Part shown: positions 38,492 to 38,774 of the stretch, in pieces
Layout: each line of letters opens with the position of its first letter
How positions within the stretch are numbered: position 1 is the first letter of the stretch
Origin: an uncultured Cetobacterium sp.
GTDB lineage: Bacteria > Fusobacteriota > Fusobacteriia > Fusobacteriales > Fusobacteriaceae
Assembly (NCBI RefSeq): GCF_945952365.1
Contig: NZ_CAMFHX010000024.1
Coordinates: 1 to 38,774 of the forward strand
Length of the DNA stretch: 38,774 bases
Direction: 5' to 3'
Translations under genes and position numbers: made by a program
The notes under the pieces: generated by a model
What the model was told of the DNA's origin: nothing
The model's input: the letters and a program-made list of their open reading frames with translations, nothing else
The model's database searches: none

Positions 38492-38520
38492 TTGAAAAAT
38501 AATTTTCGGTATGTTATAGT
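38492..38520 (+). promoter_or_regulatory. Promoter of the leader-attenuator transcript
   Basis: TTGAAA (38492-38497), 17 bases, TATAGT (38515-38520). The -10 lies inside a 15-bp palindrome. Confidence 0.75.
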
Positions 38521-38526
38521 ATAACA
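38512..38526. promoter_or_regulatory. 15-bp palindrome over the -10 box, candidate operator
   Basis: TGTTATAGTATAACA is a perfect 7-1-7 inverted repeat, the arm layout used by Fur-family regulators, though the sequence is not a standard Fur or PerR box. Its position would block RNA polymerase if bound. Confidence 0.55.
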
Positions 38527-38550
38527 AAATATTTTATAGGAGTGGTTAGT

Positions 38551-38619
38551 ATGTTTAATAAGACAATAAAAACTACAATGATGAATATGATGCCTTTGGG
38601 AGTTTGTACCAAAAATTAA
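38551..38619 (+). CDS. 22-codon leader peptide with a Met codon cluster
   Basis: Reads MFNKTIKTTMMNMMPLGVC then TKN and TAA. AGGAG (38538-38542) lies 8 bases before the ATG. Residues 10, 11, 13 and 14 are Met (ATG ATG AAT ATG ATG, 38578-38592). Residues 3-14 are all aspartate-family amino acids (Asn, Lys, Thr, Ile, Met), though all of these codons begin with A, which the A-rich composition favours. The last codons and stop lie inside a hairpin (38609-38633). A promoter, good SD, short ORF and downstream terminator/antiterminator pair together match a ribosome-mediated attenuator. It is too short for ordinary gene callers. The amino acid or drug sensed is not proven. Confidence 0.65.
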   Translation: MFNKTIKTTMMNMMPLGVCTKN

Positions 38620-38725
38620 TTTTTTAATTTTGGGACGAGCTCATTTTGATTTTCTTAAATGAGATCTCCCGAAGAAATAGCTTTTAAAACATGGCTTGGG
38701 AGATTTTATCTCTCAGGCTTTTTTT
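38609..38725 (+). promoter_or_regulatory. Attenuator: competing hairpins and terminator downstream of the leader ORF
   Basis: Hairpin 1, CCAAAA(A)TTAA / TTAATTTTGG (38609-38633), overlaps the leader stop. Hairpin 2 is CTCATTT / AAATGAG (38640-38663). The terminator stem is GCTTGGGAGAT (38694-38704) / ATCTCTCAGGC (38708-38718), loop TTT, then T7. The left terminator arm can instead pair ATCTCCC (38664-38670) with GGGAGAT (38698-38704), a 7-bp antiterminator that excludes the terminator. The regulated gene must begin beyond 38774, since no start is seen up to the window edge. Confidence 0.7.
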
Positions 38726-38774
38726 ATTATATAAGGAAACTATAGAAAAAATTTATCCAAAAAATATTGAAAAA

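Follow-up and report, generated by a model that had tools for sequence, protein, structure and literature searches.

A putative methionine-specific leader-peptide attenuator family in Fusobacteriota

We analyzed a 38,774-nucleotide window, which is the entire contig C24 of a Cetobacterium genome (G000) and ends inside an inserted mobile element. Close to its right end lies a leader that very probably acts as a ribosome-mediated transcription attenuator responding to shortage of methionine (Met), that is, of charged elongator Met-tRNA, within a regulon of Fusobacteriota. We observed its sequence parts, their conservation, a coding signature, covariation and the genes downstream of its homologues. 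This comparative evidence supports well that the leader family, which has no Rfam entry, is real, and suggests that it functions as a Met-specific leader-peptide attenuator. The predicted regulon would comprise metY-metF-metA-hom-metH, metNIQ, aspartokinase and metG. The parts of the locus in the window are as follows.

38492–38520, + strand: promoter-like site of sigma-70 type, TTGAAA-17-TATAGT, with TG ahead of the −10 (consensus match only)
38538–38542, + strand: Shine-Dalgarno (SD) sequence AGGAG, 8 nt upstream of the ATG (kept in every Cetobacterium homologue)
38551–38619, + strand: leader ORF of 22 codons, MFNKTIKTTMMNMMPLGVCTKN and stop (direct reading; indels in multiples of 3 across 15 homologues)
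38578–38592, + strand: regulatory codons ATG ATG AAT ATG ATG, Met-Met-Asn-Met-Met (Met cluster persists in diverged families)
38593–38602, + strand: segment 1, CCUUUGGGAG, in the ORF directly 3′ of the Met codons; partner, segment 2 (folding, covariation)
38608–38635, + strand: hairpin Pa round the stop codon, ACCAAAAAUUAA : UUAAUUUUGGGA (folding, covariation)
38640–38663, + strand: hairpin Pb, CUCAUUU : AAAUGAG (folding, covariation)
38664–38672, + strand: segment 2, AUCUCCCGA; partner, segment 1 or segment 3 (folding)
38695–38704, + strand: segment 3, CUUGGGAGAU; antiterminator with segment 2, or terminator 5′ arm (folding)
38693–38725, + strand: intrinsic terminator, 12-bp stem at 38693–38719, then T7 (scan; terminator pairs covary between genera)
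38729–38774, no strand assigned: terminal part of a repeated IS91-like mobile element that has inserted into the T-tract of the terminator (repeats at contig ends)

Direct reading and a scan located the SD, the 22-codon ORF with its Met-Met-Asn-Met-Met cluster, the stems and the terminator exactly where the initial annotation had drawn them, as well as the promoter boxes (TTGAAA at 38492–38497 and TATAGT at 38515–38520, with a 17-nt spacer). The promoter that it called near-consensus is present, but the match by itself is not significant (1 found versus 3.0 expected); for the terminator, 1 was found versus 0.1 expected. Its proposal of two alternative partners for 38698–38704 was borne out: GGGAGAU at these positions can pair either with AUCUCCC at 38664–38670 as an antiterminator or with the terminator 3′ arm, and the computed antiterminator excludes the terminator stem. 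What it had overlooked, apart from the mobile element starting at about 38729, is a third competing stem, in which GGGAG at 38598–38602, within the ORF just past the Met codons, also pairs with CUCCC. Folding of the leader RNA, which it had suggested as a check, gave −43 kcal/mol with z = −4.26, a value equalled by 0 of 200 shuffles. In 220,868 bases (the window plus Cetobacterium and comparison loci), 21 short SD-preceded ORFs had at least 4 ATG in 6 codons, all of them leader homologues, and none appeared in 1.16 Mb of order-1 Markov sequence. Since the fold beats its shuffles and such Met-cluster ORFs are absent from Markov sequence, the leader is not a product of chance. As in known leader-peptide attenuators, an SD-preceded ORF, whose translation is predicted from the 3-nt indels, lies between a promoter and the first gene, and its control codons match the pathway encoded downstream (Met biosynthesis, transport or MetRS). 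In homologues the regulated gene follows directly, while in the window strain an IS apparently lies between.

In the proposed mechanism, for which we infer a ribosome stall, a folding order and Met as its signal, the leading ribosome would clear the Met codons and depart when Met is sufficient, so that segment 1 would pair with segment 2, and segment 3, left free, would form its terminator and halt RNA polymerase ahead of the met genes. When Met is scarce, the ribosome would stall at the clustered AUG codons and cover segment 1; segments 2 and 3 would then form the antiterminator and transcription would run on. Hairpin Pa may refine this switch, because a ribosome at the stop codon would open it and free a second GGGA to capture segment 2. 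Masked folding of the metN clade is consistent with these steps: masking segment 1, as by a stalled ribosome, lowered 1:2 pairing from 0.66–0.78 to about 0 and raised 2:3 pairing from about 0.2 to about 0.75, and placing the ribosome at Met codons three to five removed 1:2 and favoured 2:3 until the terminator 3′ arm was made. With the ribosome masked at the stop codon, Pa opened and its 3′ arm GGGA (38632–38635) could pair with segment 2 as an alternative partner. For the metY clade, to which the window copy belongs, equilibrium folding of intermediate lengths yielded the 2:3 stem even when no ribosome was present, and at full length all states ended in the terminator. Because equilibrium folding was not clear-cut here, the metY-clade switch must be kinetic, depending on co-transcriptional timing.

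The Cetobacterium genomes hold about 17 leader copies, in two clades. The clade A peptide, MF....KTTMMNMMPLGV.TKN, precedes metY-metF-metA-hom-metH (identities backed by protein family matches), aspartokinase (L160) or a peptide-type ABC binding protein (L161, L177), and the clade B peptide, MT..NLISKTTMMNMM(M)PMGVGTKN, stands ahead of metN-metI-metQ, which come with an M20 peptidase or, in a single genome, with an msrA-like gene; the window genome also has a clade B copy, upstream of metN on contig C23. We count the peptide-type binding protein against the attenuator model. It was found as a lone 468-aa ABC substrate-binding protein behind a Met leader at three loci (L161, L177, L178) and possibly binds a Met-peptide or a Met derivative. 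Among 15 Cetobacterium copies, pairwise indels within the ORF were of 3 or 6 nt in 122 of 122 cases, and those outside it were mostly of 1, 2 or 4 nt.

A covariance model searched across 98 Fusobacteriota genomes recovered all Cetobacterium copies and a second genus of the same family (g12), with E of about 1e-6 to 1e-5 and at most 3 copies per genome. In g12, the peptide M(K/R)NFEFRQLNMMMMLWKGL is found upstream of metN and metG (methionyl-tRNA synthetase) and MVNSRIGQLNMLMMMLW upstream of metY or hom, each ending at a stop codon, with Met clusters of MMMM (LNMMMMLW form) or MLMMM. In Sebaldella-like genomes (g21), MINYKYINDNMMMYMRYRV and stop (NDNMMMYM form) lies upstream of metY, and the model matched these leaders at E of 1e-4 to 3e-4 in a small search. 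The Met-codon cluster was kept in every leader, with 4–5 Met codons in 5–6, while the rest of the peptide differed. An exact DNA pattern run over the genome contigs gave, apart from one Cetobacterium, essentially nothing but chance matches to coding sequence, and a phage collection gave no leader match; low-scoring blastn matches in other genera (L174–L176 and similar) were discarded as unrelated sequence. We also observed long Met- and Cys-rich leaders (e.g. MYMMLMCMSMMMYTF, GCMCMMDMCMEMHMIF) that share a common terminator, AATACTTTGGA...GAAGTATTTTTTTT, and precede metN in g21 (L250, L274, L278) and metY in g11 (L259, L260); with this different terminator they were treated as a separate, second class.

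Pairing was evaluated in alignment A5, whose 27 sequences represent three genera. Here 95% of cells pair and 23 of 39 pairs show two-sided changes, which amount to 119 cells versus 38.5 in shuffles (above all 500) and at most 27 in slid controls, in an alignment that was fitted to the model structure by covariance model and thereby favours the model's own pairs. A5 was chosen because the MAFFT two-genus alignment A3 misaligns segment 2. The letters of segments 1 and 2 diverge widely, from CCUUUGGGAG/CUCCCGAAG in Cetobacterium to CUUUGGAAGGGUUUG/CAAACAUCUUUCAAG in g12. Within Cetobacterium alone, the 1:2, Pa and Pb pairs hardly vary, so covariation inside the genus is not strong enough for a decision. 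When nearly all members of each family were folded independently, a 1:2 stem enclosed two hairpins and the terminator came next; somewhat different minima were obtained for the lysC copy and for the hom-metY copy of g12.

The initial annotation had pointed to the gene just past the right edge of the window. In the two closest genomes (G011 and G008), whose flanks are 87–88% identical to the window over 2.2 kb, the leader directly precedes metY, the first gene of a metY-metF-metA-hom-metH operon. In the window strain, the sequence past the edge is probably the mobile element, with metY beyond it, because the window ends in that element. Its last 46–55 bases or so are found again where contigs C41, C38 and C16 of the same genome end, each time directly after a T-tract that is twice clearly that of a terminator. 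In the window genome, the distance between the metY start and the contig C33 end is 88 nt, and the gene is preceded by a different sequence, AGCAGCTCAC...GTGAGCTGCTATTTTTTATT, similar to an IS91-like element of L188 on its transposase side (the IS91 label is our own reading of the transposase protein rather than a profile search). On the simplest reading, drawn from synteny rather than read through, the order in the window strain is apparently leader, IS and metY, and the insertion has probably uncoupled this leader copy from metY. With an element at this position, the operon may escape Met control or fall silent. The IS91-like element sits repeatedly right behind terminator T-tracts, including that of enolase (window 38729–38774; L003, L004, L005, L181, L188, L195), and looks terminator-targeting; its other end has a terminator-like hairpin of its own.

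Rfam models gave nothing at gathering score in the window. A permissive search yielded sub-threshold matches only, among them a weak His_leader match (E 0.32) that is not evidence. SAM-I (RF00162) above gathering score was absent from the window and from L157, L160, L161, L171, L208 and L225, and no T-box (RF00230) covariance model match was found in the Met-leader loci or in genomes G000, G002 and G010; T-box-like matches below threshold (73–76 bits, cut-off 93) occur in Sebaldella-like and g12 genomes (L289, L290). By our own tally of 50 regions upstream of metN or metY, taken from other genera and from second metN copies of Cetobacterium, 29 had SAM-I, 8 a Met-rich leader, 0 both and 13 neither, and at no gene were SAM-I and the Met leader found together. 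The closest orthologues of leader-controlled metN (g13, 72–73% identity) have SAM-I (L235, L236, L270), and in the window genome SAM-I occurs only upstream of metK and a second metN/MetNIQ (L263, L287; contigs C14, C8), with the Met leader assigned to the Met pathway. This distribution indicates that, within one phylum, the same genes are governed by a SAM aptamer or else by a Met leader, a natural comparison of two sensors on orthologous genes, one a SAM aptamer and the other Met-tRNA stalling.

The same RNA switching could be driven by the nascent peptide itself, if the conserved K-T-T-M-M-N-M-M-P arrested the ribosome, perhaps with a ligand such as Met or SAM. Conservation in Cetobacterium does reach past the Met codons, with the residues and codons of KTTMMNMM(M)P invariant in every copy, but the residues flanking the Met cluster are wholly different in other families (RQLNMMMMLWKGL, NDNMMMYMRYRV), as expected if the Met codons alone matter, and we consider peptide arrest improbable. 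Even less probable is an undescribed metabolite riboswitch for Met, SAM or SAH, closed by the 1:2 stem and containing the ORF only incidentally. It would account for the multi-hairpin junction, for the SAM-I control of orthologous genes elsewhere and for the strong nucleotide conservation, which extends to the non-coding GGGACGA; however, the ORF indels are all multiples of three, the SD, the start codon and the Met codons persist where the putative junction sequence diverges, and Rfam gave no match. Both AAAACUACAAUGAUGAAUAUGAUG and GGGACGA are more conserved than attenuation would require, which counts against the attenuator model.

The initial annotation had left two functions side by side, a Met sensor and a drug-inducible stall peptide for a resistance gene. 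Leader designs of erm and ABC-F genes are generally similar to this one. The drug-resistance reading was nevertheless rejected as hardly credible, since every homologue with a readable downstream gene precedes amino-acid metabolism or transport, mostly of methionine, and none precedes a resistance gene. Met sensing by attenuation, on the other hand, gained support from downstream genes that lie on the same strand and are mostly methionine genes, from an ORF and Met cluster kept in the homologues, and from stems that covary across genera. A wider proposal, which we put forward tentatively and rate as somewhat doubtful, is that Fusobacteriota repeatedly use Met-codon leaders instead of SAM riboswitches, splitting the signals so that SAM-I would serve metK and one metNIQ, and Met-tRNA charging the Met pathway; the switch might then distinguish three situations, a ribosome at the Met codons, one at the stop codon and none at all, and turn off again under extreme Met starvation, as would be expected since Met-tRNA is needed for initiation as well. 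These leaders raise the question of how translation can serve as a sensor for the one amino acid required at every initiation.

Leader-peptide attenuation is textbook knowledge for Trp, His, Leu, Ile, Thr and Phe, and a regulon-wide Met version fills a gap in this series as well as adding a new RNA family for annotation. With trp/his-type attenuators (E. coli trpL, Salmonella hisL; also thr, leu, ilv and phe), the Met leader shares an SD-preceded ORF in which codons of the pathway amino acid are clustered, a set of three competing stems, and an intrinsic terminator upstream of a biosynthetic operon, and its proposed logic is that of the trp and his attenuators (PMC1183508). It differs from them in its amino acid, whose codon doubles as the start codon, in its phylum, Fusobacteriota, and in a protector segment that lies in the ORF just past the control codons and encloses two extra hairpins. 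In most of the other Fusobacteriota examined, orthologous metN and metY are under the control of SAM-I (S-box, RF00162), whereas the Met-leader loci have a coding ORF in place of the aptamer. The Met-specific T-box of Lactobacillaceae senses Met-tRNA charging and controls met genes, as described together with SAM riboswitches (PMC4239095), but it binds tRNA, whereas the leader needs translation. A survey of Actinobacteria found no Met attenuator (PMC1262725), and the literature searched, with subscription papers mostly outside its scope and absence hence not proof, contained no Met-leader attenuator of Fusobacteriota. Its only Met case is a weak Streptomyces candidate, so the Met leader appears not to have been clearly described before. 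That candidate, metL, proposed upstream of metNIQ in Streptomyces lividans (PMC8079986), likewise has a Met-containing leader peptide ahead of metNIQ, but with three scattered Met (MSTTSDRTPATEATTTPGARCMCRRMCAF), a leaderless start, no typical terminator and a single species, whereas the Fusobacteriota leader combines clustered Met, a terminator and competing stems across several genera and operons.
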